Source: Candidatus Sulfotelmatobacter sp.
Lineage (GTDB): Bacteria; Acidobacteriota; Terriglobia; Terriglobales; Acidobacteriaceae
Direction: 5' to 3'
Assembly: GCA_017883385.1 (NCBI GenBank)
Contig: JADGNQ010000027.1
Coordinates: 1 to 51,628 of the forward strand
DNA: 51,628 bases
The stretch's first letter is position 1. Each line of letters opens with the position of its first letter. Shown here in pieces: positions 10,898 to 32,394 of this stretch. The position numbers were made by a program, and so were the translations under genes. The notes below the pieces were generated by a model, which was not told the DNA's origin, ran no database searches, and worked only from the letters and a program-made list of their open reading frames with translations.

Positions 10898-12235
10898 CTA
10901 GTCCTTCACCGCTTTGTCGGTAATCTCGAGCCCCTTGTCGATGATGGCGAACGCTTCCCGCAGTTGCTGCTCATTAATGCAGAGCGGAGGGTTGGTGTAG
11001 AACGTGTTCCAGCGCACCAGCGTATAGAGCCCCTGCTCGCGGAAGAAGCGACCTAGCGCGGCCATCTCGTCAGAAGTGCCGTTGAACGGGGCCATCGGCT
11101 GCCGCGTCTTGCGGCTGCGCACGAGTTCCACGATGCCGAACAACCCGATCGACCGCACCGCTCCGACCGAAGCATGTTTCGCCTGCAACTCGGCCCCCAG
11201 TTGCTTCATCACTACGCCCATCTTCTTCGCGTTCTCGATGAGGTGGTCTTCTTCATAGACGCGAATGGTCGCCAGTGCCGCCGCGCATCCCATGGGATGC
11301 GAGTTATAGGTCAGGCCGCCGTAGAAGACTTTGTCCTGAAAGTGCTGCGCGATGTGATGCCGCATTCCCACCGCTCCCAGCGGCAGATAGCTGGAAGTGA
11401 GTCCCTTGGCCATGCAGATCAGATCCGGGACAACCTTCCAGTGATCGACGGCAAACCATTCGCCAGTGCGCCCAAAGCCAGCCATGACTTCGTCGGCGAT
11501 CATCAGGATGCCGTACTTGTCGCAGAGCTTGCGCACGCCCTCGAGGTATCCGTCAGGCGGGATAAGAATGCCGTTGGTGCCTACAACGGTTTCGAGGATG
11601 AAGGCCGCAATCGTCTGTGGGCCTTCGAGTTGCATGGTCTCTTCGATCATGGCCAGCGACGTCTCCGCCGATTCCCAGCCACGCTCAATGCCGTGATAAG
11701 GATCGAGCACGCGCACCACGCCTGGGATGCCGGGCTCAGCGGCCCAGCGCCGCGGATCACCCGTGAGCGAGATAGCGCCTGCTGTCGCACCATGGTAGGA
11801 CCGATAGCGGGCCATGATCTTGTGCCGTCCGGTGAAGAAGCGGGAGATCTTGATGGCGTTCTCATTGGCCTCGGCGCCGCCGTTGGTGAAGAAGAACGTG
11901 TCGATGTCGCCGGGAGTGATTTCCGCGAGCTTCGCCCCAAGGCGCGCACGCGGCTCGGTTGCCATGAACGGATTAGCATAGGCGAGAGTAGCGGCCTGCT
12001 CGCTGATGGCCCGGATGACGCGTTCGTCGCCGTGTCCGATGTTGACCGACATCAACTGGCTATTGAAGTCGATGAAGCGTTTGCCCTCGGGCGTCCAGAA
12101 GTAAATGCCCTTGGCGCGAGCGACTGGGATCGGATCGACCTTCGATTGCGCGGACCACTCGAACAGCGTGTGCTTCTTGGTGAGGTCAACGATTTCCTGG
12201 CCGGTCATGGAGGAAGTGGTGAGGGTAGTGGTCAT
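10898..12235 (-). CDS. Class III PLP aminotransferase (taurine/beta-alanine:pyruvate type)
   Basis: 445 residues, ATG at 12233-12235. PLP-binding marks: FTNGGAEANENAIK (116-129), the SYHGAT stretch (146-151), ILMIADEVMAGFGRTGEW (243-260, with Asp248 contacting the pyridine nitrogen) and MAKGLTSSYLPLG with Lys277 as Schiff-base lysine. The sequence resembles taurine:pyruvate and beta-alanine:pyruvate aminotransferases, which produce an aldehyde plus alanine. It is last in a six-gene minus-strand cluster, right after MmsA. That fits conversion of beta-alanine to malonate semialdehyde, which MmsA then turns into acetyl-CoA. Other omega-amines are possible substrates. Confidence 0.85.
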   Translation of the reverse strand: MTTTLTTSSMTGQEIVDLTKKHTLFEWSAQSKVDPIPVARAKGIYFWTPEGKRFIDFNSQLMSVNIGHGDERVIRAISEQAATLAYANPFMATEPRARLGAKLAEITPGDIDTFFFTNGGAEANENAIKISRFFTGRHKIMARYRSYHGATAGAISLTGDPRRWAAEPGIPGVVRVLDPYHGIERGWESAETSLAMIEETMQLEGPQTIAAFILETVVGTNGILIPPDGYLEGVRKLCDKYGILMIADEVMAGFGRTGEWFAVDHWKVVPDLICMAKGLTSSYLPLGAVGMRHHIAQHFQDKVFYGGLTYNSHPMGCAAALATIRVYEEDHLIENAKKMGVVMKQLGAELQAKHASVGAVRSIGLFGIVELVRSRKTRQPMAPFNGTSDEMAALGRFFREQGLYTLVRWNTFYTNPPLCINEQQLREAFAIIDKGLEITDKAVKD

Positions 12236-12270
12236 AAGAGTCCTTAGTTTCTCAGATAGAGAACATCGCA

Positions 12271-12378
12271 GCGATTGAGTAATTGGGGAATTTGGTAATT
12301 GAGTAATTGAGAACCGTAACCGCGCGTTGCGCTGGTTTGAAATTACGCAATTACCAAATTTCCCAATTACTCAATCGC
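12271..12378. repeat. 38-bp AT-rich inverted repeat
   Basis: The arms 12271-12308 (starting GCGATTGAGTAATTGGGGAA) and 12341-12378 are reverse complements with two mismatches in 38 positions, around a 32-nt GC-rich centre. The arms are built from the units GAGTAATT and GGTAATT. They are far more AT-rich than the surroundings. The element fills the gap between mmsA and the aminotransferase and ends 2 nt from the mmsA stop. Confidence 0.9.
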
Positions 12379-12380
12379 TC

Positions 12381-13871
12381 TTAGAACTTGCGGCTGTGCT
12401 CCTTGGCCCAGCGTTCGACGACAACTTTCTTGTCGGTGTAGAACTCGATGGCGTCGCGGCCCTGGCCGTGGAGATCGCCGAAGAAGCTGTTCTTCCATCC
12501 GCTGAACGGGAAGTAGGCCATGGGTGCGGCGACTCCAATGTTGATGCCGATGTTGCCGGCAGGCGCTTCGTAGCGGAAGCGGCGCGCGGCCGAGCCGCTC
12601 GATGTGAACAGCGACGCCTGGTTGCCGTAGGCGCTGCGTTCGAGGAAGGCTAGAGCTTCGTCCATGTTGTCGGCGTGAACGAGGCTGAGCACCGGGCCGA
12701 AGATTTCCGTGTCGGCGAGATCGCTGGTCGCGGGAACGTCGTCGAGGACCGTGGGCTTCACGAAGTTTCCGGATTCGTATTTCGGAATCTTCGAGTTTCG
12801 GCCGTCCACTAGAACCTTCGCACCTTGCTTCTCGCCCAGTCCGATCAGGGACTCTACGCGTTCTTTGCTCTGCGGCGTAATCACGGGCCCCATCTGCACG
12901 CCTTCTTCAAGCCCATTGCCGACTTTGAGTTTAGAGGCAGCATCAGCGATCAAATCGCGGAACGTCTTCTGCGCTTCGCCGATGGTGACTGCGACCGAAA
13001 CGGCGAGACAACGCTGTCCCGCACAACCGAAGGCGCTGTCGCTGATGATCTGTGTCGCCATGGGCATGTCGGCGTCGGGGAGAATGACAACGTGGTTCTT
13101 GGCGCCGCCCTGGCACTGGCAGCGCTTCCCTTGCTCACCCGAGCGCGCGTAGATGTAGCGCGCAACCGGAGTCGAGCCAACGAAACTGATGGCTCGCACT
13201 CTCGGATGGTCGATGAGCGCGTCGACCACAGCCTTGCCTCCGTTTACGAGACTGACGACACCTTTGGGCAGCCCGGTTTTCGCCAGAAGTTCGTACACGT
13301 AGCGCATGGTCAGTGGCACACGCTCACTCGGTTTCAGAATGAATGTGTTGCCAGTAGCGATAGCGTAGGGCAGGTACCAGAATGCGATCATGCCGGGAAA
13401 ATTGAAAGGCACGATGGCGGCGGTAACGCCGAGGGGTTGGCGGATCATCATCTCGTCGATGCCGCGAGCGACGTCTTCGAGGTTGTAGCCCTGCATCATC
13501 ATGGGAATGCCGCAAGCCACTTCGACGTTCTCAATTGCGCGGCGCATTTCGGCTTTGGCTTCGGTGAAGGTCTTGCCGTTCTCCATCGTGATGATGCGGG
13601 CGATGTCGTCGATGTGTTCTTCGAGCAGCATCTTGAGCTTGAACAGAGGCTGGATGCGGTCTTCGGGCGGCGTGCGGCGCCATTCGGGAAAAGCTACGGC
13701 TGCGGCTTCGACCGCGACATTGACCTCGGCCGCGTCGGCGAGCGGGACGCTGGCCAGGACTTCGCCCGTGGCGGGGTTGACCACGTCGCGCCATTCGGAG
13801 GAGCGCGAGTCGGTCCATTGTCCATTGATGTAGTTCGTCAGCCGGGTGATGGGAGGTGCTGCTACGCTCAT
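12381..13871 (-). CDS. mmsA: Methylmalonate/malonate-semialdehyde dehydrogenase (CoA-acylating)
   Basis: 496 residues from the ATG at 13869-13871 (AGAGG 7 nt upstream), the usual MmsA length. Diagnostic residues: PFNFP (155-159), LKPSERVP (179-186), [15 protein letters not shown] (254-268, where most aldehyde dehydrogenases have LELGG) and FGCAGQRC, with catalytic Cys288. The enzyme converts (methyl)malonate semialdehyde, CoA and NAD+ to propionyl- or acetyl-CoA. Between GabT and a beta-alanine-type aminotransferase it is best read as the last step of beta-alanine degradation; valine or inositol breakdown genes are not nearby. The open frame extends upstream to 14069 but runs through repeat DNA. 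Confidence 0.92.
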
Positions 13872-13994
13872 GGTGATGCCTCTGCTATCGCGAAGAATGT
13901 CGTGCTGGGAACTCACGAAAGCCCTGCGCAACGTGAGAATTCCCCCAGATGAGAACTTAATGATACATGCCCTGTAGGGATCCTTCGACTGCGG

Positions 13995-14025
13995 TTGTCC
14001 TTCGCGCTTGAGGCGCGAAGGACAA
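13995..14025. repeat. 13-bp perfect hairpin between gabT and mmsA
   Basis: TTGTCCTTCGCGC (13995-14007), loop TTGAG, then GCGCGAAGGACAA (14013-14025). It is flanked by GGATCCTTCGACTGCGG and CTCGCTCAGGATGAC, which match a common intergenic element of the type TCCTTCGACTC-CGCTCAGGATGAC, here split by the hairpin. Confidence 0.85.
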
Positions 14026-14046
14026 TCCTCGCTCAGGATGACAAAG

Positions 14047-15408
14047 CTAAACCAACTGCGCCACTGCACCTTTCTGATCGCACACGGTGGCGATGGCGGA
14101 CTCGAGTACGTCGAGCGCTTCGTCCATTTGTTCGTTGGTCATGACCAACGGCACCAGAACGCGGATTACGTTGGAGTACGTGCCGGCCGTGATGGTAATC
14201 AGACCGTGTTCGTAGCAACACTGCGTAATCTTTTTCGTTTCCTCGGTTGCGGGAGTCTTTAGTTCCTGCGACTGCACAAGTTCGATGGCTTGCATGCCGC
14301 CGAGGCCGCGCACATCGCCGACGATCGGCCAGCGACGCTGCCATTCACGGGCGCGGCGCTGGAAGCGATCGCCGAGTTCGTTGGCGCGCGCGAGCAGGTT
14401 CTCACGTTCAAACAAATCGAGCACAGCCAGGGCTGCGGCACAGGAGAGCGGGTTTCCGGCAAACGTTCCGCCGAGACCGCCGGGGCCGGGAGCGTCCATG
14501 ATTTCGGCTCTGCCAGTGACGGCGGCAAGCGGCAATCCGCCCCCGAGAGATTTCGCCGTGACGATCAAGTCAGGCTCAATGCCGTAGCGCTCGCTGGCGA
14601 ACAGCGCGCCCGTGCGTCCGAAGCCGGACTGGACTTCGTCGGCAATAAAGAGGATGCCGTGCTTGTGGCACAGCTCGATGAGGACCTTGAAGTAATCCGG
14701 CGGCGGCGCGATGAATCCACCCTCTCCGAGAACAGGCTCGGCAATCACAGCAGCAACTTCCTCGTTCGCCACGACACGCTTGAACGTGTCTTCGAGATGA
14801 CGGGCGCAGTAAAGATCGCACGATGGATATTTCAAGTTGTACGAACAGCGGTAGCAGTAGGCAAACGGGACGCGATACACCTCGCCGGGAAACGGGGCGA
14901 ATCCGGCCTTATAAGGATGCGTCTTGCTGGTGAGGGCCAGTGTCATCATCGTGCGGCCGTGGAAGGCGTCCTCGAAAGCAATGATGCCGGGACGCTTGGT
15001 GTAGGCGCGGGCAATCTTGACTGCATTCTCGACGGCCTCGGCGCCGCTGTTCACAAAGATAGTCTTCTTCGCGAACTTTCCCGGCGTAACTTCGTTCATG
15101 CGCTCGGCGAGGCGAACGTAACTCTCGTAGGGCGTGACCTGCACGCAAGTATGCAGGAAGCGGTCGAGCTGGTCTTTCACTGCGTCGACGACAGCTTCCT
15201 GGCGATGGCCGACATTGAGGCAGCCGATGCCTCCGGCGAAGTCGAGGTAGCGGTTGCCGTCGACGTCTTCGAGCCAGGCACCTTCGGCCTTGGCGACATA
15301 GATGGGAGTACCGTGAGAAAGGCCGCGGGGCACGGCTTTGGCGCGGCGCTCGGAGAGGGCTTTGGATTTCGGGCCCGGGATCGGAGTGCGGAGTTGAATA
15401 GTGGACAT
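14047..15408 (-). CDS. gabT: 4-aminobutyrate aminotransferase
   Basis: 453 residues, ATG at 15406-15408. It is a class III PLP aminotransferase with [17 protein letters not shown] (118-134), FHGRT (149-153), [14 protein letters not shown] (254-267, Asp257) and [14 protein letters not shown] with Lys286 as Schiff-base lysine. The overall pattern ([34 protein letters not shown]) is GabT. It converts GABA and 2-oxoglutarate to succinate semialdehyde and glutamate. Four cysteines at 185, 188, 197 and 201 (CYRC, then CDLYC) form a possible metal or Fe-S site, as in a GabT subgroup. It sits between the aldehyde dehydrogenase and MmsA genes. No succinate-semialdehyde dehydrogenase of the GabD type is in the window. 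Confidence 0.88.
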
Positions 15409-15498: not shown

Positions 15499-16980
15499 TC
15501 AATACCAGCCAATCGGCGCTTCATTCAGATTGATGTATACCTGCTTGGTCTCGAGATATTCTTCGATGCCCCAAGGGCCGAGTTCGCGGCCGAAGCCGGA
15601 TTGCTTGTAGCCTCCCCACGGCGCTTCGACGTAGGTGGGCTGCATGTGGTTGACCCAAACGATTCCGGCGCGCAGAGCTTTCACCGAGCGCATGGCTTTG
15701 AAAATATCGCGGGTCCAGACGGCGGCGGCGAGGCCGTAGGGAGAATCGTTGGCGATCTTCAGCGCGTCCTTCTCATCTTCGAATGGAATCACCGCAGCGA
15801 CCGGGCCGAAGATTTCTTCGCGAGCAATGCGAGCGCTGTTGGTCACGTCGTAGAAGATTGTGGGCTGCACGTAGTAGCCCTTCGCGAATTGTTCGGGACG
15901 TCCGCCGCCGGAAGCAAGCTTGGCTTCTTTCTTGCCAATCTCTATATAGGAGTTCACGCGGTCGTACTGCTCCTTGCTGACCAGTGGGCCCATTTTCGTC
16001 TCCCGCTCCAGTGGAGGACCGAGTTTGATCTTCTTCGCTTTCTCGGTCATGGCCTCGACGAACTTCTTGTAGATCGATTTCTGCACAAGGATCCGGCTGC
16101 CGGCCGAGCAGACCTCGCCTTGATTGATGAAGACGCCGAAGAGAGCACCGTCGATGGCCGCCTCGAAATCAGCATCGGCGAAAAAGATGTTGGGCGATTT
16201 ACCACCGAGTTCGAGAGTGACGCGCTTCACGGTGTCGGCGGCCTGTTTGACGATGATTTTGCCAACGGCGGCGCTCCCAGTGAAGGCGATCTTGTTGACG
16301 TCGGGGTGTTGGACGAGCGGGGCACCGCAGGACTCGCCGAAACCGGTAATGACGTTGACCACGCCCGGAGGCAGGCCGCAGTCTGCGAAATGCTTGGCGA
16401 ATTCCAAAGCCGTGAGCGGCGTCTGCTCGGCTGGTTTAAGCACGCAGGTGCAGCCTGCGGCCAGCGCCGGCGCTAGTTTCCAGGCGGCCATCAGCAGCGG
16501 GTAGTTCCACGGGATGATTTGTCCTGCGATACCGACGGGCTCTTTGAGCGTCAGGCTCATGGCATTGTCGGGGACAGGGTTCACGTAGCCGACGACCTTG
16601 GTGGCGAGTCCGCCGTAGTACTCGAAGCAGGTGGCGACGTCGTTGAGATCGTATTCGGCCTCGACGATGGGTTTGCCGGTGTTGCGGCATTCGAGTTCGG
16701 CGAGCGCGGGCAGGTTCTGGCGAACTTTGTCGGCGAGACGGAAGAGAACGCGGCCGCGTTCCTGCGCGGTCGTGGTCGCCCATGGGCCTTCTTCGAAGGC
16801 GGCTTTGGCAGCGGCGACGGCGCGGTTCACGTCGTCGGCAGAGGCGTCTGGGACTTGAGCGATGACTTCCTCGGTCGAGGGATCGTAGACAGGGAAGGTC
16901 TTCGCCGATTTGCTCGCGACCCATTCCCCGTTGATGAACATTTGATAGGTACGGACTTCGGTTGTGACTCCGCCGGGCAT
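15499..16980 (-). CDS. NAD(P)+-dependent aldehyde dehydrogenase (betaine/aminobutyraldehyde type)
   Basis: 493 residues from the ATG at 16978-16980, with an excellent Shine-Dalgarno (AGGAGGTCGG) 6 nt ahead. Catalytic set: PWNYP with Asn159, LKPAEQTP with Lys182, LELGGKSPN with Glu257 and GEVCSAGSR with Cys291; the C-terminal PWGGYKQSGFGRELG follows. Closest in pattern to betaine-aldehyde/gamma-aminobutyraldehyde dehydrogenases and plant-type ALDH2/9 enzymes. Next to gabT and a permease it would oxidise 4-aminobutanal to GABA, and perhaps 3-aminopropanal to beta-alanine. Betaine aldehyde as substrate cannot be excluded, though no choline genes are present. Confidence 0.87.
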   Translation of the reverse strand: MPGGVTTEVRTYQMFINGEWVASKSAKTFPVYDPSTEEVIAQVPDASADDVNRAVAAAKAAFEEGPWATTTAQERGRVLFRLADKVRQNLPALAELECRNTGKPIVEAEYDLNDVATCFEYYGGLATKVVGYVNPVPDNAMSLTLKEPVGIAGQIIPWNYPLLMAAWKLAPALAAGCTCVLKPAEQTPLTALEFAKHFADCGLPPGVVNVITGFGESCGAPLVQHPDVNKIAFTGSAAVGKIIVKQAADTVKRVTLELGGKSPNIFFADADFEAAIDGALFGVFINQGEVCSAGSRILVQKSIYKKFVEAMTEKAKKIKLGPPLERETKMGPLVSKEQYDRVNSYIEIGKKEAKLASGGGRPEQFAKGYYVQPTIFYDVTNSARIAREEIFGPVAAVIPFEDEKDALKIANDSPYGLAAAVWTRDIFKAMRSVKALRAGIVWVNHMQPTYVEAPWGGYKQSGFGRELGPWGIEEYLETKQVYINLNEAPIGWY

Positions 16981-17022
16981 GATTTTCCGACCTCCTACAG
17001 TATCGGCGAGCAACGCTCGCAC

Positions 17023-17056: not shown

Positions 17057-18574
17057 CTAGCGCCGAACTTCGCTCGCCGGCACAGGCGAGACGATTGCGC
17101 CGATTTGAACCGGTTGCGACACCTTATGCCGGCCGTAGACGAAGAAGAAAAATGCGGCCAGTCCGATGAAGAACACTGTGCCGCCGAACATCCACAGCTC
17201 GTAGGACCACAGCGACGTGATTTGCTGGGCCGGGAAAAACACCAAAGCGATACCAAGGATCGTTGTCAGGAATCCGCTGGTCCCAGCGAGAAAAAGTGTG
17301 GTCCGGCCGTATTGGCCTTGGGGTTTCGACTCCGTAACCGCGAACTTCACGAGCGCGCCGAACATGTAGACGAACGGGACAAGTTGAAGAACAACCGCGA
17401 GCGAAAGGAGCTTCTGGAACACTTCGCCGGCGCCCGCCGGGCTCAGATACAAACGCGGGAGTAATCCGAAAACGCCCATCAGCTTGTCCCAAAACCACCA
17501 GCCGAAGAAATTCCCGAGCACGAGGAGTCCCGAGACAATTGCCTGCACGATCAGCGCGGCGTACGGCGTGGTGTAACGCGGATGGACTTTGCCGAGCCAC
17601 GAAGGCATGTAGGAATCGAGTCCCGCGACGAAGGGAATGCGCGCGGAACCGCCCATCCACGCGGAGCCGATGCCCGCGATCGAAAGGCTGAGCATCAGAG
17701 CGAAGGGCATGGAGATCCAGCCGACGCCGACGCGCTCGGCCATGTGGCTGACAGCTTGGACGATTCCTTGCAGCACATTGACGTTCTTGCCGACGGCGAC
17801 GAGGAGGGTTAGCGTCGCACCGATGTAGAGAGCGCCGGAAAGGACTCCGCCCCAAGCAACCGCGCCGGGGAGAGTGCGGCGTGGGTCTTGAATTTCGTCG
17901 CCCATGACGGAAGCGAGTTCGAGACCGACCAGACCGAAGCAGATCACGCCGAAAGAGTTCAGTACGAATTTGGGATCGGCGGGGATCTTGAAGTCAGCCG
18001 CAGTGATGGTCGTTCCAAAGCGCGACCAGACCACCACACCAAGACCGATCAGCACGGCGGCGGCGATGAACGTTCCAATCGCGCCCAAGTTGTTGATCCA
18101 CTTGCCGATGCCCAGGCCGAGAATGTTGAGCACCGTCAGCACGACGAGCAAGGCGACGGAGGCGGTGGAGGCGAAGGCTCGATTATCCGCCAATCCCTGA
18201 TGGCCGGGGCCGAGTACGTAGACCGACACGCCGACGAAGTAGAGCATGACCGTCGGTACGTAGAGCATGTTGTTGGTCCAGTAACACCAGCCGGAGAGGA
18301 ATCCATGGAAGTCGCCGAAGACTTCTTTGGCCCAGAGGTAGACGCCGCCTTCGCCGGGATAGCGATGTGCGAGTTCGATGACCGCGATGCCCTGAGGCCA
18401 GAAGAAAAGGAGGAGCGAGATAATCCAAAGCCAGACGGTGACGCCGCCGTTGGCGGCGATGGAGGGGACGACGTTGAGATTGAAGACGGCAACGACGAAG
18501 AGCAGCACCAGATCGCGGCGTCCGAGGGCGCGGATCAGGTGCGGCTGAGCGTCGGGTTGGGCGGTGGTGGACAA
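17057..18574 (-). CDS. APC-superfamily amino acid/amine permease
   Basis: 505 residues if read from the TTG at 18572-18574 (GTAGAGAAATC ahead). Upstream in-frame codons fall in repeat C and D sequence and are unlikely to be coding. About 12-13 transmembrane helices are visible. The first helix carries VVAVFNLNVVPSIAANGG in place of the classic APC GSG motif, and the conserved YPGEGGVYLWAKEVFGDFHG loop follows helix 2, as in glutamate/GABA and amine exchangers. It probably imports a GABA-like, amine or amino acid substrate for the flanking enzymes. Flanking copies of palindrome C frame the gene. Confidence 0.85.
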   Translation of the reverse strand: MSTTAQPDAQPHLIRALGRRDLVLLFVVAVFNLNVVPSIAANGGVTVWLWIISLLLFFWPQGIAVIELAHRYPGEGGVYLWAKEVFGDFHGFLSGWCYWTNNMLYVPTVMLYFVGVSVYVLGPGHQGLADNRAFASTASVALLVVLTVLNILGLGIGKWINNLGAIGTFIAAAVLIGLGVVVWSRFGTTITAADFKIPADPKFVLNSFGVICFGLVGLELASVMGDEIQDPRRTLPGAVAWGGVLSGALYIGATLTLLVAVGKNVNVLQGIVQAVSHMAERVGVGWISMPFALMLSLSIAGIGSAWMGGSARIPFVAGLDSYMPSWLGKVHPRYTTPYAALIVQAIVSGLLVLGNFFGWWFWDKLMGVFGLLPRLYLSPAGAGEVFQKLLSLAVVLQLVPFVYMFGALVKFAVTESKPQGQYGRTTLFLAGTSGFLTTILGIALVFFPAQQITSLWSYELWMFGGTVFFIGLAAFFFFVYGRHKVSQPVQIGAIVSPVPASEVRR

Positions 18575-18607
18575 GATTTCTCTACGAGTCGCCTCGCTTC
18601 GCTTGGC

Positions 18608-18634
18608 GGACAGCCGAGGCGGCTGTCCCCACAT
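18608..18634. repeat. Family C palindrome, copy 2
   Basis: GGACAGCCGAGGCGGCTGTC followed by CCCCACAT; one base shorter in the loop than the copy at 17023. It lies just upstream of the permease start and supplies a false ATG (in CCCCACATGAG read on the other strand) in frame with the permease. Confidence 0.85.
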
Positions 18635-18648
18635 GAGCATTGCTGGTG

Positions 18649-18684
18649 CACGTAGGGGCGGACGAATGCGTCCGCCCCTACGTG
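18649..18684. repeat. 16-bp perfect hairpin (family D)
   Basis: CACGTAGGGGCGGACG (18649-18664), loop AATG, CGTCCGCCCCTACGTG (18669-18684). It ends 3 nt from the stop codon of the aminotransferase gene. Confidence 0.9.
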
Positions 18685-18687
18685 AGT

Positions 18688-24093: not shown

Positions 24094-24145
24094 GGAACCT
24101 CCAGACATCTTCGGGAGAGTTTGATTTTTCCTTGAAAGCGACGGC

Positions 24146-24245: not shown

Positions 24246-25067
24246 ATGCAGCCGGGCGTGCAAGTGATGAAACCGACCAGTGCGGAACCCTATCTAAAAA
24301 TCGGCGACGTGGCAAAAAAAGTAGGAGTCTCGCCCTCGGTGATCCGTTCGTGGGAGAGTCTGGGACTGGCGCGTCCGCGGCGCACGGAGAGCAAGTACCG
24401 GCTCTACACCGCCGATGACGTAAAGCTTCTGAAACGGGCACGGTTTCTGCGCAAGGTGCGCGGGTTGAACGCCGCGGCGATCGTGCAGTTGCTGAAGCGC
24501 GAAGGCAAAGTACATCCGGCAGGCGATGGAAATGCGGGGGCCATCGGGGCTCACCTGCGGCAGTTGCGGGCGCGGCGGAGGCTTTCCCTGGCGCAAGTGG
24601 CGCAGGCCGTGGGTATCTCGGTAGGGTTTCTCAGCGCGCTCGAGCGTTCCCAAATGAGCGGCTCGGTGGGAACGCTGCGCAAGTTGGCCCGGTTCTACAA
24701 GAAGAACATTCTGGATTTCTTTAATGCCAGCGGAGCCAGCGGCCGGCAAGTGCGTCCAGCGGAGCGAAAGGTGCTGGAGGCGGGCGCGGGCGTGCGCATG
24801 GAATTGCTGGCGTGGGGCAACACAGTGATGGAGCCGCATCTGTTCCGCATCGCGCCCGAGGCAGGCAGCGGAGATCCCTATGCACATGAAGGAGAGGAAT
24901 TCATTTACATCTTGCGCGGAGACCTGGAGATCACGCTGGACGGAGAGGAATACCGGCTCAAATCCGGGGACAGTTTTTATTTCGAGAGTGCAACACCGCA
25001 TCGCTGGAAAAACCCGGGACGCAGGGAAACATGGGTGCTGTGGGTCAATACGCCGCCGACGTTCTAG
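24246..25067 (+). CDS. MerR-XRE-cupin fusion transcription regulator (PuuR-like)
   Basis: 273 residues with three parts. Residues 14-80: a MerR-type winged helix-turn-helix (LKIGDVAKKVGVSPSVIRSW; KYRLYTADDVKLLKRARFLR). Residues about 97-155: an XRE helix-turn-helix (LRQLRARRRLSLAQVAQAVG; GFLSALERS). Residues about 190-270: a cupin (PYAHEGEEFIYILRGDLEIT; SGDSFYFESATPHRWKN) able to bind a small ligand. XRE-cupin proteins include PuuR, the putrescine-utilisation repressor of E. coli. The additional MerR domain gives two DNA-binding domains in one chain. It is divergent from the TonB receptor and lies next to polyamine genes. A second in-frame ATG is at 24267; neither start has a strong Shine-Dalgarno. 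Confidence 0.9.
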   Translation: MQPGVQVMKPTSAEPYLKIGDVAKKVGVSPSVIRSWESLGLARPRRTESKYRLYTADDVKLLKRARFLRKVRGLNAAAIVQLLKREGKVHPAGDGNAGAIGAHLRQLRARRRLSLAQVAQAVGISVGFLSALERSQMSGSVGTLRKLARFYKKNILDFFNASGASGRQVRPAERKVLEAGAGVRMELLAWGNTVMEPHLFRIAPEAGSGDPYAHEGEEFIYILRGDLEITLDGEEYRLKSGDSFYFESATPHRWKNPGRRETWVLWVNTPPTF

Positions 25068-25177: not shown

Positions 25178-26935
25178 TTGATCACGGAGAGGAAGTCGAG
25201 TGCGTGGAGATTGCGCCGGTTGGCAGCCGGCGCATTGGCGGCTCTCTGTTTCATGGCGGCGAATGCGGCGGCCGCCGGACAGACGGCAACTTCCCCTGCG
25301 GACAAGGTTGTTGTGCACGGCAGAATCTACACGGTGAACGAGAAGCAGGCGTGGGCTGAGGCTTTGGCTATCCGCGGGGAAAGAATCGTCGCGGTGGGGA
25401 GCGACAAAGAGATCGATGCTTACCGCGGAAGCTCTACCCAGGTGATTGATGCGGCGGGACGACTCGTGCTGCCGGGCTTTGAAGATTGCCACATCCATTT
25501 CATGGATGGATCGATTGGTCTGGACCAGGTCGATTTGAATGACGCCAAGACGGTGCGCGAGATCCAGAAGCGCGTGAAGGAATACGCTGCGTCGCATCCC
25601 AAGGAGCCGTGGATCACGGGCATGGGCTGGACCTACCCGACCTTTGGAGCGGCGGCCCTACCCGACAAGAAGATTCTGGATGAAGTCGTGCCTGACCGGC
25701 CCGTGTATCTCGTCGCGTTTGACGGTCACAGTTCGTGGGCCAACAGCAAAGCGCTGGCGATGGCAGGGATCACCAGGGAAACACCCGATCCAGCCAACGG
25801 AAAAATTGTGCACGACGCAAATGGGGAACCCACCGGCGCCCTGAAGGAAGCGGCGGGCGATCTGGTGGCCAGCAAGATGCCAAAGCCGACGCGCGCAGAA
25901 CGGTTGGCGGCGCTGCGCAAGGGAATCCATGAGGCGAACAAGTTTGGACTCACCCGGGTGCACAGCGCCGGGCAGGACTTTGAATATCTCGATCTCTACG
26001 ACGAATTGCGGCGCAGTGGCGAGTTGACACTGCGGTTCTACGTGGCGTACTTTCTCGATCCGCCGGAGTTGCGAACACAAGATCTGGAGAAGATCGAGAA
26101 AGCACGTCAGACGTATCACGACGAGTGGATTGCTGGCGGCGTGGTGAAGACGATGCTCGATGGCGTGGTCGAGGCCCACACTGCGGCCATGCTCACGCCG
26201 TACAGCGACGATCCCAGCCAGATCGGGAAGATGTTCTGGGAGCCGGACAAGTACAACGCGGCGATCGTTGAGTTAGACAAGCGTGGGTTGCAGATATTCA
26301 CGCACGCGATCGGCGAAAAGGCGGTGCGCACTGCGCTTGATGCGTATGAGAACGCGGCTCGAACGAATCATACGCACGATGCGCGGCCTCGCATCGAGCA
26401 CATTGAAACCGTCGCAGCGGATGACATTCCGCGCTTTGGAAAGCTGGGAGTAATTGCCAGCGTTCAACCTTTGCACTTGTATCCCGACGAGGACACTTTA
26501 GATATTTGGGCTCGCAATGCCGGACCGGAACGGGCGCAGAGGGCGTGGTCGTTTCACAGTATTGCCGCGAATGGTGGGCGGCTCGCTTTTGGCAGCGACT
26601 GGCCGGTGGTGACGATGAATCCGTGGAAGGGCCTGCAGACGGGCGTTACTCGCAAGACATCCGAGGGAAAGCCCGAGGGGGGCTTTGTGCCCAGTGAAGC
26701 CGTGAGCCTGGAGGACGGAATCAAAGCGTACACACTGGGTGCGGCGTTTGCGGGGCGGCGTGAGCAGCAGGAAGGATCGCTCGCGGCGGGTAAATTGGCA
26801 GACCTGATCATTGTGGATCAGGATCTGTTTAAGATTCCGGCGTCCAAAATTGACAAGACGCAAGTGGTGCTGACGATGGTGGGTGGAAAAGTGGTATACG
26901 AGTCCTCGAAGCCCAGAGCCTCGGAGGGAAAATGA
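25178..26935 (+). CDS. Exported amidohydrolase (YtcJ / N-substituted formamide deformylase type)
   Basis: 585 residues from a TTG at 25178, with GAGGAG 10 nt ahead. A signal peptide covers residues 1-34 (basic RLRRL, then AAGALAALCFMAANAAAA). Typical YtcJ motifs: GRIYTVN (48-54), LPGFEDCHIHF with metal ligands His105 and His107, THAIGEKAV, RIEHIETV and FGSDWPV near the end, with the C-terminal KLADLIIVD. Characterised relatives remove formyl or acyl groups from N-substituted amides. The stop overlaps the potD start (ATGA), so product and binding protein are made together. This suggests release of a free amine in the periplasm for capture by PotD. Confidence 0.85.
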   Translation: MITERKSSAWRLRRLAAGALAALCFMAANAAAAGQTATSPADKVVVHGRIYTVNEKQAWAEALAIRGERIVAVGSDKEIDAYRGSSTQVIDAAGRLVLPGFEDCHIHFMDGSIGLDQVDLNDAKTVREIQKRVKEYAASHPKEPWITGMGWTYPTFGAAALPDKKILDEVVPDRPVYLVAFDGHSSWANSKALAMAGITRETPDPANGKIVHDANGEPTGALKEAAGDLVASKMPKPTRAERLAALRKGIHEANKFGLTRVHSAGQDFEYLDLYDELRRSGELTLRFYVAYFLDPPELRTQDLEKIEKARQTYHDEWIAGGVVKTMLDGVVEAHTAAMLTPYSDDPSQIGKMFWEPDKYNAAIVELDKRGLQIFTHAIGEKAVRTALDAYENAARTNHTHDARPRIEHIETVAADDIPRFGKLGVIASVQPLHLYPDEDTLDIWARNAGPERAQRAWSFHSIAANGGRLAFGSDWPVVTMNPWKGLQTGVTRKTSEGKPEGGFVPSEAVSLEDGIKAYTLGAAFAGRREQQEGSLAAGKLADLIIVDQDLFKIPASKIDKTQVVLTMVGGKVVYESSKPRASEGK

Positions 26936-27999
26936 CCAGACAACGCATAGTGCGGTTGTTGCCCCTGCTGGCCGCCGTTCTGCTGGTCGGATCTTGCGCC
27001 AAGAAAACGCCAACGCTCAACCTTCTGGTGTGGGAGGGCTATGCCGACCCCTCGTTCGTCAAGGCTTTCGAGGAACAGAATCATTGCAAAGTCTCAGCGT
27101 CGTACATGGGATCGAGTGACGAACTGGTAGCAAAGCTGCGCGGAGGCAGCGCCGGGAACTATGACGTGATTTCTCCCTCGAGCGATGTGGCGACGTTCAT
27201 CACGGAGGCCGGACTGGCCGCGCCGCTCGATCTTTCGAAGATCCCGAGCTACAACCAACTTTCTGCGCAACTCAGTTCCCTGCCGCTGGTGCGCGCCAAC
27301 GGCCAAGTGTATGGAGTTCCGTTCATGTGGGGACCGGATCCGATCATCTACGACACGACCGTGTTCACCAAACCGCCGGACTCATGGAATGTCATGTGGG
27401 ACCCGAAGTACAAAGGAAAGATATCCGTGTGGGACGATCTGTCAACCGTGTACATGGCGGCGCAAGTTCTCGGTTATGACAAGCCCGACCCATCGCAGCT
27501 CTACAACCTGAGCGACGAGCAATTGGAAGCGGTCAAGAAGAAACTGCTGGAGTTGAAACCGAATATCCGCAAGATGTGGGCGACCGGCGGGGAGTTGACG
27601 AATCTGTTTGTGAGCCACGAGATCGTAATTGCAATGGGCTGGCCGCTCAATACTGCTGATTTGAAGAAGGCGAACTTCCCTGTGGGCGAGACGATCCCCA
27701 AGGAGAACACTACAGGGTGGATCGATCACCTGATGATCACGGCCGGCAGCGAAAACAAGGAACTGGCGCACAAGTTTCTGGAATACATGGTGGAAGCGAA
27801 GACGCAGAAACTTGTAACTGACAAGACGAACTATGCTCCGGCGAATCCGCAGGCGGGGCAGTTCATGACCGCCGACGAAGTGAAGATTCGGCATCTTGAT
27901 GATGTGGACAACTATCAGAAGCGAATCTATTTCTGGCAGAATGTGCCGCGGCGCGCAAAATACAACGAGACTTGGAACGACGTGAAGGCTGCGCAATAG
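26932..27999 (+). CDS. potD: Spermidine/putrescine ABC transporter substrate-binding lipoprotein
   Basis: 355 residues. The N-terminal signal has a lipobox (LLVGSC, Cys22), so this is a membrane-anchored periplasmic lipoprotein. The mature part follows the PotD/PotF pattern: LNLLVWEGYADPSFVKAFEE, YDVISPSSDVATFITEAGL, YGVPFMWGPDPIIYDT, the GELTNLFVSHEIVIAMGW segment and FLEYMV near the end. It captures polyamines for the PotABC permease. It starts inside the amidohydrolase stop codon by a 4-nt ATGA overlap and is followed after a repeat by potA. Ligand type (spermidine, putrescine or other) cannot be fixed by eye. Confidence 0.9.
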   Translation: MTRQRIVRLLPLLAAVLLVGSCAKKTPTLNLLVWEGYADPSFVKAFEEQNHCKVSASYMGSSDELVAKLRGGSAGNYDVISPSSDVATFITEAGLAAPLDLSKIPSYNQLSAQLSSLPLVRANGQVYGVPFMWGPDPIIYDTTVFTKPPDSWNVMWDPKYKGKISVWDDLSTVYMAAQVLGYDKPDPSQLYNLSDEQLEAVKKKLLELKPNIRKMWATGGELTNLFVSHEIVIAMGWPLNTADLKKANFPVGETIPKENTTGWIDHLMITAGSENKELAHKFLEYMVEAKTQKLVTDKTNYAPANPQAGQFMTADEVKIRHLDDVDNYQKRIYFWQNVPRRAKYNETWNDVKAAQ

Positions 28000-28001: not shown

Positions 28002-28043
28002 CCTCACTTCTCGCGCAAAAGGCGCGCGAGAAATGGGGCACCC
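28002..28043. repeat. Family B palindrome, copy 3, inside the pot operon
   Basis: CCTCACTTCTCGCGC-AAAAG-GCGCGCGAGAAATGGGGCACCC-type hairpin (arms TTCTCGCGC and GCGCGAGAA). It lies 3 nt after the potD stop and provides a false ATG (28033) in frame with potA. As an mRNA hairpin it may protect the potD message and raise PotD over the permease. Confidence 0.85.
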
Positions 28044-28071
28044 GACTGGTCCGTGGACCGAAAAACGACTC

Positions 28072-29175
28072 ATGGTTTCCCCTACCACTCCCGCGCCGGC
28101 AGTAACGGCAAGCATCCAATCCGCCGCGAAGCCAACCCTGCTCAGCATCCGCAATGTGGCCAAGACTTTCGGCCGCAATGCCGTTCTGCGGAATGTTTCG
28201 CTCGAGATTGCCGAGGGAGAATTCCTCACGATTCTGGGTGAGAGCGGCTCCGGGAAGACGACGTTGCTGCGAATTGTAGCCGGCTTTGAGACCGCGACTT
28301 CGGGCGAACTATGGATGGGCGACGAGCGTCTGGACCGGCAGCCCCCATATCGGCGTCGTGTGAATACAGTGTTCCAAAGCTATGCGCTGTTTCCACACCT
28401 CACCGTCGAACAGAACGTGGGATACGGATTGCGTGTAGCGAAGCGGCCGGCGGCGGAGATCGCGCAGCGAGTCGCTGACGCGCTGGACAAAGTAAAGATG
28501 ACGGCGCATGCAAAAGCGAAACCGTCGAAGATCAGCGGCGGACAGCAGCAGCGGGTAGCCCTGGCACGCGCGCTGGTGAACCGGCCCCGGCTGCTCTTGC
28601 TCGATGAACCGCTTTCGGCGCTCGACGCGAACTTGCGCCGGCAGATGCAGGTCGAACTGAAGTCCCTGCAGCGCGAAGTGGGCATTGCTTTTGTGTTTGT
28701 CACTCACGATCAGGAAGAGGCGATGGTCATGTCGGACCGGATCGCCCTGCTGCGTTCAGGGGAACTGGAGCAAGTGGCAACGCCGCGCGAGATTTATAGC
28801 CGTCCGGCGACTGCGTATGTCGCGCAGTTCATCGGGCATACGAATCTACTCAAGGGAGACGTGCGAGGCGGCGTGGTGCGGGGCGGATCGTTGTCGTGGG
28901 CTACTTCCCTTCCCGATGGGCCGGCGCTCTTTTCTCTCCGACCGGAGCATGTTCGCCTCGCCGGAACTGGCGGCCCGCCTGGGCTAGTTCGCACGCGGGG
29001 TCGAGTGCTGCATCAGGCGTTCCATGGCGCGACCGAATTGATCCGCGTGGAATGTGCCGACGACCTCGTGTTGGTCATGCGGACGGCGAGCGGAGGCGGA
29101 GCGCTGCATGAGGTCGACCTCGAGTTTTCCGCCGCCGATGCGGTTCTGGTACGCGAATCTCCGGAAAGAAACTGA
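28072..29175 (+). CDS. potA: Polyamine ABC transporter ATPase
   Basis: 367 residues from the ATG at 28072; the in-frame ATG at 28033 lies in repeat copy B3 and is less likely. Motifs: Walker A GESGSGKTT, Q-loop NTVFQSYALFPHLTVEQNVGYG, signature SGGQQQRVALARALV, Walker B LLLLDEPLSALD, H-loop VFVTHDQEEA. A C-terminal TOBE/OB region (LFSLRPEHVRLAG) is typical of PotA/MalK-type ATPases and senses regulation. It powers the PotB-PotC channel. The stop overlaps the potB start by one base (TGATG). Confidence 0.92.
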   Translation: MVSPTTPAPAVTASIQSAAKPTLLSIRNVAKTFGRNAVLRNVSLEIAEGEFLTILGESGSGKTTLLRIVAGFETATSGELWMGDERLDRQPPYRRRVNTVFQSYALFPHLTVEQNVGYGLRVAKRPAAEIAQRVADALDKVKMTAHAKAKPSKISGGQQQRVALARALVNRPRLLLLDEPLSALDANLRRQMQVELKSLQREVGIAFVFVTHDQEEAMVMSDRIALLRSGELEQVATPREIYSRPATAYVAQFIGHTNLLKGDVRGGVVRGGSLSWATSLPDGPALFSLRPEHVRLAGTGGPPGLVRTRGRVLHQAFHGATELIRVECADDLVLVMRTASGGGALHEVDLEFSAADAVLVRESPERN

Positions 29176-30023
29176 TGTTCTCCCGCGCTTACAAGACGGC
29201 CGTGGCGGCGCCTCCGCTGTTGTGGGTCTCGGTGTTCCTGCTGGCGCCGTACCTGCTGATGTTCTGCTACAGCTTCTGGTCGGTTTCTTCTTCGCGGACC
29301 ATCGTGCACTCGTGGAACCTGAACAACTATGAGGAGTTGCTGGCGAAGACGGTCTATTGGCAGACGCTGTTGCGCTCCATGTGGATTGCGGCGCGCGTGA
29401 TGTTGTTCTCTCTGCTGCTGGGGTATCCGCTGGCGTATTTCCTTTCGTTCTATGCGGGCAAGCGGAAAGACCTGCTGTATCAGATGGTGATTGTTCCGCT
29501 GTGGGTCAGCTACCTGGTGCGGGCGTATGCGTGGAAGACGATTCTCGGCTCTGACGGCGTGCTCAATACGCTGCTGCAGTATGTACATTTGACTCGCCAC
29601 CCGCTCGACTTTCTGCTGTACAGTCCGTTTGCGGTCGTGTTGACGCTCACGCATATCTACACGCCCTTCACGTTTCTGCCGATCTATGCGGCGCTGGAGC
29701 ATGTTCCGCGCAATCTGGTCGAGGCCTCGCATGATCTGGGCGCGACGCCGGTGCAGACATTCTGGAGAGTGATCTTCCCGCTGTCGATCCCCGGAGTCGT
29801 GGCCGGAGCTACATTTGCCTTCGTCTTGAGCCTGGGCGATTTTCTGGCGCCTCTGCTGCTGGGTGGACCGAGCGGCATCATGATTTCGAACATCGTGGTC
29901 AGCCTGTTCGGCGCGGCGTACAACTGGCCGCTGGGCGCGGCGATTTCTCTGGGCATGCTGGTGATCGTGGTGAGCCTGCTGTTCTTCTCGGAGCGGCTGG
30001 AAAAGAAATGGAGCTTCTCATGA
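29175..30023 (+). CDS. potB: Polyamine ABC transporter permease
   Basis: 282 residues with six transmembrane helices, first at about 11-32 (PPLLWVSVFLLAPYLLMFCYSFW). The cytoplasmic coupling loop carries an EAA motif: EASHDLGATPVQTFWRVIFP. It forms the inner-membrane channel with PotC. It overlaps potA by 1 nt and potC by 4 nt (ATGA), so the whole set is translationally coupled. Confidence 0.92.
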   Translation: MFSRAYKTAVAAPPLLWVSVFLLAPYLLMFCYSFWSVSSSRTIVHSWNLNNYEELLAKTVYWQTLLRSMWIAARVMLFSLLLGYPLAYFLSFYAGKRKDLLYQMVIVPLWVSYLVRAYAWKTILGSDGVLNTLLQYVHLTRHPLDFLLYSPFAVVLTLTHIYTPFTFLPIYAALEHVPRNLVEASHDLGATPVQTFWRVIFPLSIPGVVAGATFAFVLSLGDFLAPLLLGGPSGIMISNIVVSLFGAAYNWPLGAAISLGMLVIVVSLLFFSERLEKKWSFS

Positions 30024-30865
30024 GCGAGGGCGCGACCAACCTCCCACGCTCGCGCTGGCTGCTGGTCCATGCAGGGGCGGTGTTTGCATTCCTCTATCTT
30101 CCCATTGCCGTGCTCATCCTTTATTCATTCAACGGACAAGGAGTGGGCGGATTTCCGCCGCGCAACCTGACGCTCGACTGGTATCGCATCCTGTTCGCAG
30201 ACGAGCCGATCTGGGACGCGGTACTCAACAGCCTGCAAGTCGCCTTTGCAGCGATGGTGATTGCACTGGCACTCGGTGTGCCGGCAGCGCTGGCGCTGGA
30301 CCGAGCGCAGTTTCCAGGCAAGGCGCTGTTCCGGCGACTGGTGCTGCTGCCGCTGATTTTGCCGGGCATTATCACAGGGCTTTCGCTGCTCATGCTGTTC
30401 AACGTGACGGGCACGAAGCTCAGCCTGATGACGATTGTGTTAGGCCACGGGACCGCGTTGATCTCGGTGGCGACGACAGAAGTCTTCGCGGGATTGCAGA
30501 AACTGGATCGCCGTCAAGAGGAAGCGTCGCTCGATCTGGGCGCGACCTACTGGCAGACGTTCTGGCGGATCACGGTACCAAATCTGAAGCTTTCGATCAT
30601 CGGCGCGGCTCTGCTGATTTTCACGCTCTCGATGGATGAGATCGCGGTCAGCTTCTTCCTGATCGGCCGTGACAATACCCTGCCGCTGGAGATCTGGGGA
30701 CGGTTGCGGCGGGGCATCACGCCGGAAATCAATGCGGTGTCGACCATCATTTTTGTTTTCTCGCTGGTAACGATCGTCTTCTGGTACCGGCTGCGTGTAC
30801 GCAGCGAGGGCGGAGCCGATGTGGGGATGGAACTGCTGGAAACATCTGAGGGGAGTGCGAAGTGA
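30020..30865 (+). CDS. potC: Polyamine ABC transporter permease
   Basis: 281 residues from the ATG at 30020 (GGAG 6 nt upstream and overlapping the potB stop); an ATG at 30008 in the same frame has no ribosome site. Six transmembrane helices, with the EAA loop EEASLDLGATYWQTFWRITVP. The tail extends past the last helix with acidic residues (EGGADVGMELLETSEG). It is the partner of PotB and overlaps the oxidase gene by GTGA. Confidence 0.92.
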   Translation: MSEGATNLPRSRWLLVHAGAVFAFLYLPIAVLILYSFNGQGVGGFPPRNLTLDWYRILFADEPIWDAVLNSLQVAFAAMVIALALGVPAALALDRAQFPGKALFRRLVLLPLILPGIITGLSLLMLFNVTGTKLSLMTIVLGHGTALISVATTEVFAGLQKLDRRQEEASLDLGATYWQTFWRITVPNLKLSIIGAALLIFTLSMDEIAVSFFLIGRDNTLPLEIWGRLRRGITPEINAVSTIIFVFSLVTIVFWYRLRVRSEGGADVGMELLETSEGSAK

Positions 30866-32394
30866 ACGCGAATCGCAGGGACTTCATCAAATTTGTGGTG
30901 GCGGGAGCGGTGACGGCGGGATGTCCGGTGGATCTTTCGCTGGTGGCGGCGCAAACCAGTGGCGCACACGCCGGCGCAAACGTCGACGGCGAGGACAATC
31001 GCATCTGCCACCAGGTTCGCGACGGCCGCGTGTTCTCGAGGCCTCCGGCATCTACGAAGCACGATGTGGTGATCGTAGGCGGAGGCGTGAGTGGGCTCAC
31101 GGCGGCGTATCGGCTACAGCATCGCGACGTTCTGCTGCTCGAAAAGGAGCCGCAGTGGGGCGGGAATGCCTACGCCATGGAGTACGAAGGCAGCACTTAC
31201 GCGACGGGCTCTGCATTCCTGTGGTCGGACTCCGAGGCGTTTCGCTTTGCCAAAGAGATTGGGCTTGACCCGTTGCCTGTGAATTGCCCGGACGGCAGCA
31301 TCATCAACGGCGAGTTCGTGCCCGACACGTGGGGCGATGGGCTGAAGAAGTTGCCCTATCCGCCCATCACGCGCGATAGCTTCAAAAAGTTCAAGAACGA
31401 GATCATGGCTATCGACCTGGAAAAGCGGGGATCGGGGCTGTACGACGTTCCTTTCTCCAGTTTCATGAAGTTGTACGCGCAGGAAATCAAGCAATGGTGG
31501 GACGCGTTCGGCCTGTCCAACTGGGGTGCGACCAGCGACGAGACGGCAGCAGGGCTGGCGATCAGCGAGTTTCAGGATGTAGTGGACCAGAGCCGCGCCG
31601 ACAATCGCTACACCTGGCCGGGAGGCCTTGGAGCCATCACGAAGAAGCTGGCCGAAATGCTTCAACCTAAGTATGCCGACCGCATGCAGATAGGCGCAAC
31701 GACAGTGGCCGTCACTCCGGGCAAAGAAGAAGTCCAAGTCACTTACGTGTTAGGCGGCGATCTGAAAACTGTGACGGCAAAGACGGTCATTATGGCCACG
31801 CCGAAATTCATCACGCGGCGCATCGTGGAAGGACTCCCCGACAAGCAGAGCCAGGCCATGAAGCAGATTCGCTACACTCCCTACTGCGTGGTGAACCTGA
31901 TTTTCGACAAGCCGGTGTTCAACAAGGGATACGACACCTGGTGCCCCGGCAATTCGTTCACGGATGTTCTAGTGGCGGACTGGGTCATCCGCAAGAAGTC
32001 CGGCTACAAACAGAAGCACAACATCCTGAGCTGCTACACGCCCATGAAAGAGGAAGAGCGCGGCAATTTGTTGACCGAGGGCGGAGCGCGCAAGATCGCC
32101 GCGAACGTGCTGCGCGATTTTCAGAGGCTGACGCCGGAGACCAACGTGAATCCAGTCGAGGTCCACATCTACCGGCGCGGGCATCCTATGTATATGGCCA
32201 CGCCCGGGCTGTTCACGCAGGTGCAGCCACTGGTGCGGCAACCCATGGATCGCGTGTTCTTCGCGAACACCGATTCACAAGGGCCGGAGTCGACGACGAA
32301 CGAAGCGATTGTCGCAGCGCGCCGAGCGGTACGGCAGGTCGAGGCACGCCTGGCAGGCAGGCCCGCAGGGAAAGAAACCGCAGTGCTAGGCTGA
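30862..32394 (+). CDS. Tat-exported FAD-dependent amine oxidase/dehydrogenase
   Basis: 510 residues, GTG start overlapping the potC stop. The N-terminus has a twin-arginine signal (NRRDFIKFVVAGAVTAG), with Cys21 in a possible lipobox. Residues about 67-98 form a Rossmann FAD site (DVVIVGGGVSGLTAAYRL; LLLEKEPQWGGNA). The ending (RVFFANTDSQGPESTTNEAIVAARRAV) is the flavin amine oxidase C-terminal FAD contact. Tat export means a folded, cofactor-loaded periplasmic enzyme. In line with the operon it may oxidise polyamines, as spermidine dehydrogenases do, giving 4-aminobutanal plus 1,3-diaminopropane or similar. Another amine or a carotenoid-type substrate is possible; the family is broad. Confidence 0.8.
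   Translation: MNANRRDFIKFVVAGAVTAGCPVDLSLVAAQTSGAHAGANVDGEDNRICHQVRDGRVFSRPPASTKHDVVIVGGGVSGLTAAYRLQHRDVLLLEKEPQWGGNAYAMEYEGSTYATGSAFLWSDSEAFRFAKEIGLDPLPVNCPDGSIINGEFVPDTWGDGLKKLPYPPITRDSFKKFKNEIMAIDLEKRGSGLYDVPFSSFMKLYAQEIKQWWDAFGLSNWGATSDETAAGLAISEFQDVVDQSRADNRYTWPGGLGAITKKLAEMLQPKYADRMQIGATTVAVTPGKEEVQVTYVLGGDLKTVTAKTVIMATPKFITRRIVEGLPDKQSQAMKQIRYTPYCVVNLIFDKPVFNKGYDTWCPGNSFTDVLVADWVIRKKSGYKQKHNILSCYTPMKEEERGNLLTEGGARKIAANVLRDFQRLTPETNVNPVEVHIYRRGHPMYMATPGLFTQVQPLVRQPMDRVFFANTDSQGPESTTNEAIVAARRAVRQVEARLAGRPAGKETAVLG

Follow-up and report, generated by a model that had tools for sequence, protein, structure and literature searches.

We describe a gene cluster on a contig of Candidatus Sulfotelmatobacter sp. 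(JADGNQ010000027.1) with which this soil acidobacterium would probably import and degrade polyamines, the two divergent halves being switched together by one regulator at one site. The stretch of DNA analyzed, here called the window, is the whole contig (C198; 51,628 bases) of a genome of 6.8 Mb that is 97% complete, and the cluster, or island, spans positions 10898 to 32394. The genes, their conserved layout, the operator between the halves and displaced copies of that operator are read directly from the sequences, and we regard a polyamine-degradation regulon under one regulator as the likely, if not secure, explanation. A preliminary description of the window had proposed such an island and was right in outline: the island and the co-occurrence of its halves stand, and operator copies elsewhere add to the polyamine link, but the oxidase taken for a spermidine dehydrogenase and the regulator taken for PuuR have been corrected. 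The predicted regulon, for polyamines, 4-aminobutyrate (GABA) and beta-alanine, is well conserved. Its features are as follows.

10898..12235, minus strand: AT1, class III aminotransferase of the PRK06062 subfamily (527 bits, cut-off 472)
12381..14069, minus strand: MmsA, CoA-acylating (methyl)malonate-semialdehyde dehydrogenase (TIGR01722, 558.9 bits, cut-off 448.5)
14047..15408, minus strand: GabT, 4-aminobutyrate:2-oxoglutarate aminotransferase (TIGR00700, 565.8 bits, cut-off 506.65)
15499..17022, minus strand: aldehyde dehydrogenase (ALDH), betaine/aminoaldehyde type (best profile TIGR01804, below cut-off)
17057..18814, minus strand: APC permease, GadC-like (129.4 bits, cut-off 650)
18688..20064, minus strand: HemL-like class III aminotransferase, a paralogue (start placed at Met 28 of the open reading frame [ORF])
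20173..24093, minus strand: Oar-like TonB-type outer-membrane receptor, first gene of the minus operon (OMP_b-brl_4, 654.9 bits)
24160..24184, no strand: operator, perfect palindrome AACCTTGC-N9-GCAAGGTT, with the plus-strand -10 TATAAT in its spacer
24146..24173, plus strand: promoter TTGTAA-16-TATAAT of the regulator/Pot side (promoter scan)
24180..24209, minus strand: putative promoter, conserved TTGACA at 24209-24204 and a weak -10 over the right arm of the operator (by eye)
24246..25067, plus strand: regulator, a fusion of MerR winged helix-turn-helix, XRE helix-turn-helix and cupin (PF13411, PF01381, PF07883)
25178..26935, plus strand: exported Amidohydro_3 metallohydrolase (PF07969, 358.6 bits; signal-like N-terminus by eye)
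26932..27999, plus strand: PotD-like binding lipoprotein (profile searches, pocket alignment)
28033..29175, plus strand: PotA-like ATPase (profile search)
29175..30023, plus strand: PotB-like permease (profile search)
30008..30865, plus strand: PotC-like permease (profile search)
30862..32394, plus strand: flavin adenine dinucleotide (FAD) amine oxidase/dehydrogenase, predicted to be exported by the twin-arginine (Tat) route and distantly related to spermidine dehydrogenase (SpdH), with SpdH-like histidines H50 and H441

From the center outwards, the minus strand encodes the receptor, the HemL-like aminotransferase, the APC permease, the aminoaldehyde-type ALDH, GabT, MmsA and AT1, and the plus strand the regulator, the amidohydrolase, PotD, PotA, PotB, PotC and the FAD enzyme. 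Stop and start codons overlap at the amidohydrolase-PotD junction and at every junction between PotA and the FAD enzyme. Profile searches of the window ORFs recovered, in place, every gene listed in the preliminary description, which had overlooked the Oar-like receptor and the N-terminal MerR domain of the regulator. The receptor ORF (20173-24180) has 1335 codons; we set its start at the ATG at 24093, behind GGAGGT, since start and Shine-Dalgarno sequence are conserved by eye. The true start of MmsA probably lies inside its ORF.

To compare gene order, as had been proposed, we searched 100 genomes of the family (the window's own included) with the regulator and the FAD enzyme and mapped the surroundings with the window proteins. 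Thirty-five genomes counted as regulator-positive, a list fixed after the matches had been seen. The counts refer to the 34 regulator neighborhoods besides the window, with a gene scored only where enough contig was readable and with identity thresholds chosen after inspecting the lists. The layout of the island is conserved. Both halves, represented by the HemL-like aminotransferase and PotD, occur in 16 of the 19 loci readable on both sides (the exceptions are in genomes G028, G027 and G035); the two halves therefore do co-occur in related genomes, and the arrangement is not chance. On the minus side, the readable relatives have the receptor in 25/26, the HemL-like enzyme in 22/23, the permease in 20/21, the ALDH in 19/20, GabT in 19/19 and MmsA in 14/17. 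An AT1 orthologue is present in 3/17, and several relatives have a different class III aminotransferase in its place, the one scanned being nearest to PRK08117, below cut-off. On the plus side, the amidohydrolase is found in 19/26, PotD in 20/24, PotA and PotB each in 19/24, PotC in 18/23 and the FAD enzyme in 11/23.

The divergent promoter region contains a perfect palindrome, AACCTTGC-TATAATCCC-GCAAGGTT, on a -10 box, within the 152 bases that separate the likely receptor ATG from the regulator. The plus promoter has 10/12 matches (0.1 in shuffles), and its TATAAT is the operator spacer's. The conserved minus-strand TTGACA would place a -10 over the right operator arm; the promoter scan that found the plus promoter did not report a minus one. 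Aligned regulator upstreams have a near-invariant block, AACCTTGC-TATAATCGC/CCC-GCAAGGTT, with arms exact or changed once in 30 of 32 rows. The block was not found in the aligned upstreams of G035 and G065, and those of G084 and G096 are too short to align. Searched with at most two mismatches, AACCTTGCTATAATNNNGCAAGGTT occurs at 40 places in 34 of the 100 family genomes, with 0 control matches. The operator is present in 33 of 35 regulator-positive genomes versus 1 of 65 others (Fisher p = 6.7e-23, a value that ignores kinship), the lone outsider being G086, where the site stands at a contig end. In the window's own genome the operator is the sole exact copy. Allowing up to three mismatches gives 29 sites there versus 25 for the reversed control pattern, and we set these weak palindromes aside as resembling chance. 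A one-mismatch palindrome at G000:C206:10884-10908 (L240 2385) lies about 140 bp before another Oar-like receptor; it lacks TATAAT and was not counted as an operator.

Thirty-two of the 40 operator places precede the regulator, two precede the island receptor on broken contigs (G059:C25, G086:C701) and one lies between receptor and PotD (G065). The remaining five are elsewhere: before a PotDABC set away from the island (G027:C14), before tandem SpdH genes (G004:C38), before a receptor and two SpdH genes (G071:C175), before an amidohydrolase and two SpdH genes divergent to a receptor (G073:C444), and at an APC permease unlike the island's (G022:C164; TIGR03428 197.5 and TIGR00907 150.6 bits, both below cut-off), where the site falls within the ORF as listed but ahead of a downstream Met that we take as the start. 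The window's own genome has a copy at C145:924, with two arm mismatches and a TATAGT spacer, directly before an SpdH gene truncated by the contig end. Copies before PotDABC and before what appear to be true SpdH genes are the best link to polyamines. SpdH (at least 45% identity, a limit set after seeing the lists) also tracks the regulator across genomes: both occur in 28, the regulator only in 7, SpdH only in 5 and neither in 60 (p = 1.9e-13, again ignoring kinship). A more distant acidobacterium (L146) has two SpdH genes (3-1208 and 5737-7710; ~47-49%) and MmsA before the regulator.

These data make it very improbable that the halves are separate, unrelated operons that became neighbors by chance. 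The Pot, amidohydrolase and FAD genes are indeed lost in some relatives that retain the minus operon. However, besides the shared presence at most readable loci, a single operator covers the divergent promoter region, the relocated PotDABC of G027 has its own copy, and a Silvibacterium locus (L143) groups the same genes, namely PotD/PotA, the HemL-like enzyme, the APC permease, ALDH, GabT, MmsA, regulator and receptor, in another order and orientation. At L143 and at L144, also from Silvibacterium, a site AACCTTACATATATTCAGCAAGATT precedes a further ALDH. G072, without the regulator, has GabT, ALDH, APC permease and HemL-like enzyme divergent to PotDABC, a Tat-exported amine oxidase and SpdH; the oxidase lies between PotC and SpdH (joined stretch 19535-21121).

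The island's own oxidase is not an SpdH in the strict sense. We rejected that earlier identification, as there is no full-length sequence match to the SpdH of Pseudomonas aeruginosa (PaSpdH): phmmer matches residues 47-110 only, and a search of the PDB with the FAD enzyme's profile gives 54 bits (local) for SpdH versus 77 for monoamine oxidase (MAO) B. Single-sequence searches likewise match MAO, and SpdH only around the FAD motif. Profile against profile, the FAD enzyme family and SpdH align over 489 columns (E 1.3e-27). As a weak control, the single-sequence G072 amine oxidase matches the FAD family at 5.1e-13 over 410 columns and SpdH at 1.2e-8 over 276. PaSpdH binds heme b through His54 and His562, according to an excerpt of PMC12564564. 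The motif around His54 reads CHxxRDG in the FAD family (17/17, H50) and AHxxRDG in the SpdH set (14/14), and H441 of the FAD enzyme is invariant (17/17), two columns from PaSpdH H562 in the profile alignment. The structure model (pLDDT 72, pTM 0.79, both predicted-confidence scores) resembles putrescine oxidase, MAO and SpdH about equally in a fold search (~1e-22 to 1e-23), which does not separate them. The N-terminus is, by eye, a twin-arginine signal. The enzyme is in our assessment a distant, Tat-exported relative of SpdH: it shares with PaSpdH (PDB 7d9f-7d9j) the Tat signal and the long profile alignment, has histidines that may correspond to the heme ligands, and differs in being ~110-140 residues shorter, in having Val at the Y443 column and in scoring higher with MAO-B. 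The operator-linked SpdH of L234 (8525-10483) matches PaSpdH over its full length (544 bits over 621 residues); its heme histidines H86 and H584 are present in 14/14 aligned SpdH sequences, and PaSpdH Y443, one of the positions mutated in structures of that enzyme, is kept and invariant in the 14.

We used the spermidine contacts of E. coli PotD, as given in an excerpt of PMC11414716, as the reference for the pocket. In the alignment of 25 PotD sequences, window included, W34, Y37, W229 and W255 (the aromatic cage), Y293 and D257 are present in 25/25 and D168 in 24/25; E35, D85 and E221 are invariant. A GABA-specific Pot protein was considered as a candidate identity and set aside, the PDB match to 4euo, which we take to be Atu4243, being weak (32.9 bits). 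The GadC-like score of the APC permease, far below its cut-off, might suggest that the cluster serves acid resistance in acidic soils through amino acid/GABA antiport, its catabolic genes being secondary. This is hardly credible to us: a scan of the island proteins, which did not extend to the rest of the genome, found no glutamate decarboxylase, and the other island genes look catabolic.

Among the cytoplasmic enzymes, AT1 has as its closest structure the taurine:2-oxoglutarate aminotransferase 6jix (367.9 bits; next 273.5). The ALDH falls below equivalog cut-offs (TIGR01804 576.3/668.6, TIGR03374 403.4/909.3), and its best PDB match is the betaine-aldehyde dehydrogenase 5gtk. The HemL-like aminotransferase scores 391 with TIGR00713 (cut-off 527.3) and passes the broader PRK00062 subfamily (NF000818, 416.4 over 398). 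A role in heme biosynthesis was dropped because the genome has a true HemL at C157 (603.6 bits). The closest structures to the exported amidohydrolase are uncharacterized.

The regulator joins MerR_1 (63.3 bits), HTH_3 (49.7) and Cupin_2 (72.7) Pfam domains in one chain. It had been called a PuuR-like cupin regulator between the halves; the position is as described and its XRE and cupin part resembles E. coli PuuR, but the PuuR identity fails on score (NF007408, 76.4 versus a cut-off of 211) and on the added MerR domain. Close relatives occur in Candidatus Sulfotelmatobacter L128 (84%), in Acidobacteriaceae L129 (91%) and in several "gp1" isolates. Among 396 genomes sampled across the phylum, 15 encode a full-length regulator (E 1e-40), including four from the window's own family. 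For wider relatives we took the best 80 loci from a search of genome contigs, among which full-length proteins at 32-47% identity come from rhizobia, Chloroflexi, Actinobacteria, Firmicutes and others. An island-set aminotransferase or ALDH lies within 3 kb at 33 of 41 distant full-length loci, and GabT at 27 of 41, in a count that leaves out the 15 island-type loci L128-L142, the partial L200 and the phylum loci L212-L222 (~1.5 kb of flank; GabT in 1/11). None of the 23 short XRE-cupin relatives has such an enzyme within 3 kb; two of these 23 (L188 and L206) match from residues 36 and 52.

In the rhizobial loci among the best 80, GabT followed by ALDH is divergent to the regulator in 22 of 23, the remaining locus being cut by the contig. 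Two annotated records name the genes 4-aminobutyrate transaminase, succinate-semialdehyde dehydrogenase (SSADH) and "MerR family transcriptional regulator," and one GabT/ALDH pair passes the GabT and SSADH cut-offs. By neighborhood, then, the regulator appears GabR-like. At the Luteitalea locus L182, the only window proteins recognized are MmsA (45%), the regulator and AT1 (72%), that is, the C3 arm alone. C3 and C4 genes thus occur alone beside the same regulator, as the two-arm idea of the preliminary description predicted; which aminotransferase would act on which amine stays tentative. A related half-site, CTTGC-N9-GCAAG with at most one mismatch, is found in 10/23 rhizobial upstreams (0.2 expected) versus 1/23 of the short relatives (0.26 expected), and, over a set of 51 loci that includes four of the island type, in 12 (0.65 expected). 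It is absent from the other 13/23 rhizobial upstreams, and the rhizobia examined are related, so independent cases are few. In some rhizobial upstreams (e.g., L154, L156 and L158), the first site is followed 33 bp further on by a weaker one of the form TTCCTACATTTTTTCTGCAAGAAT.

Several observations weigh against polyamines as the substrate. In other phyla it is chiefly GABA genes that accompany the regulator, whose main task may accordingly concern GABA. Of 91 searched loci (the best 80 plus the 11 phylum loci), a single one, L146, has SpdH next to the regulator. An operator site with at most three mismatches is found at 4 of 30 SpdH loci with readable upstream sequence (31 loci; 0.05 expected from shuffles), two of the four belonging to the window's own genome. 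None of 20 longer upstreams (1.9-9.3 kb; 18 from regulator-positive genomes) of SpdH genes without a near site carries one (0.2 expected); one operator for all SpdH genes was accordingly rejected. Within the island, the FAD gene is missing in 12/23 and PotD in 4/24 readable relatives; the PotD-like protein is below cut-offs (PotD 105.5/582, PotF 102/636, YdcS 131.8/725 bits), and of the four acidic residues with which E. coli PotD contacts spermidine, two are replaced in it (E36 by G, E171 by T). PaSpdH D282, mutated in structure 7d9i, aligns with G in the L234 SpdH, at a position that is not invariant. Finally, the window has no GabD, as had been noted, and genome-wide none of 19 SSADH-profile matches passes cut-off. 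In one genus, three- and four-mismatch palindromes stand at about -291 before SpdH (G000:C190:82387, L252; G082:C23, L262).

It is tempting to read these points as a regulon for omega-amino acids (GABA, beta-alanine and their peptides or amides), in which the Pot system carries such compounds and a peptidase feeds in beta-alanine. The window encodes an S58 peptidase (5028-6713, plus strand) that matches DmpA and BapA at 356.6 and 332.5 bits, names that we presume to apply to 1b65 and its family. In 6 of the 13 relatives with enough room, this DmpA/BapA-type beta-peptidyl aminopeptidase gene is located past the distal end of the island, and its product could supply beta-alanine. The position of this gene, the aminotransferase or ALDH genes beside distant regulators set against the single SpdH, and the nearness of AT1 to a taurine aminotransferase all favor omega-amino acids. 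However, the operator copies precede true SpdH genes, PotD retains the aromatic cage and two acidic contacts of the E. coli protein, SpdH co-occurs with the regulator, and G072 has a PotDABC-oxidase-SpdH run. Altogether, we judge an omega-amino acid regulon unlikely and prefer polyamine degradation.

For a polyamine regulon the following route can be drawn, in which we infer binding by the MerR-XRE-cupin protein, repression, the inducer and all enzyme substrates from sequence. Polyamines or their conjugates would cross the outer membrane, perhaps aided by the TonB-type receptor, and the exported amidohydrolase, the Tat-exported FAD enzyme and the Tat-exported SpdH encoded elsewhere would release and cleave them. 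Uptake of amines and omega-amino acids would fall to PotDABC and the APC permease. Cytoplasmic aminotransferases and ALDH may convert diamines and aminoaldehydes to GABA and beta-alanine, which GabT would take to succinate semialdehyde and AT1 with MmsA, via malonate semialdehyde, to acetyl-CoA, respectively. The regulator would sit on the palindrome over both divergent -10 regions and keep both operons repressed, to be released by an intermediate, for example GABA. A fuller version is doubtful as a whole. It holds that the source is plant litter or necromass, whose conjugated polyamines the regulon would scavenge: the receptor would import acyl-polyamines, the exported amidohydrolase deacylate them, and two types of flavoenzyme exported by the Tat route, SpdH and a compact SpdH-like heme flavoprotein, split the amine while it is still in the periplasm, before PotDABC and the APC permease import the pieces. 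All of this, with GABA and beta-alanine breakdown, would be governed by a dual-helix-turn-helix MerR-XRE-cupin regulator that shares a half-site and nine-base spacing with the rhizobial gab operon.

Soils are rich in acidobacteria, and we found no description of such an island in the open-license literature on MerR-cupin-type regulators and acidobacterial polyamine genes. With a single exact operator, the regulon can be tested by one binding experiment and one mutant. For the regulator next to rhizobial gabT-gabD, the analysis also supplies a putative binding site and a larger family to which it would belong. A further outcome is a compact relative of spermidine dehydrogenase that may carry heme; spermidine dehydrogenase itself is of interest for polyamine sensors (PMC12564564). 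Outside the island, the window encodes a 1075-residue sigma-54 activator with several PAS domains next to a DUF4118 ORF (6813-10040, minus strand) and a row of MFS, HlyD and outer-membrane efflux genes (38687-42990, minus strand).

Among known systems, Pseudomonas breaks down polyamines and beta-alanine with spuC, kauB, gabTD, spdH and bauABCD. The island resembles this set in its Pot-type uptake, aminoaldehyde dehydrogenase, class III aminotransferases, GabT and MmsA-type enzyme, and in the SpdH-type dehydrogenase. It differs in forming one divergent regulon under one MerR-XRE-cupin regulator and in adding a TonB-type receptor, an exported amidohydrolase and a second exported FAD enzyme. The closer comparison for the regulator is with rhizobia, in which gabT is reportedly induced by GABA, going by the title of one paper. 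Rhizobium leguminosarum has gabDTR, raised in pea bacteroids, according to an excerpt of PMC6421345. Judging from its place beside gabT-gabD, the GabR of this species would be a MerR-XRE-cupin protein. Rhizobial loci and the island share a full-length homologous regulator (35-42%, 23 loci), divergent to GabT and ALDH in rhizobia, and related half-sites; the rhizobial system has the GABA arm only, whereas the window regulator adjoins a receptor and an amidohydrolase instead.

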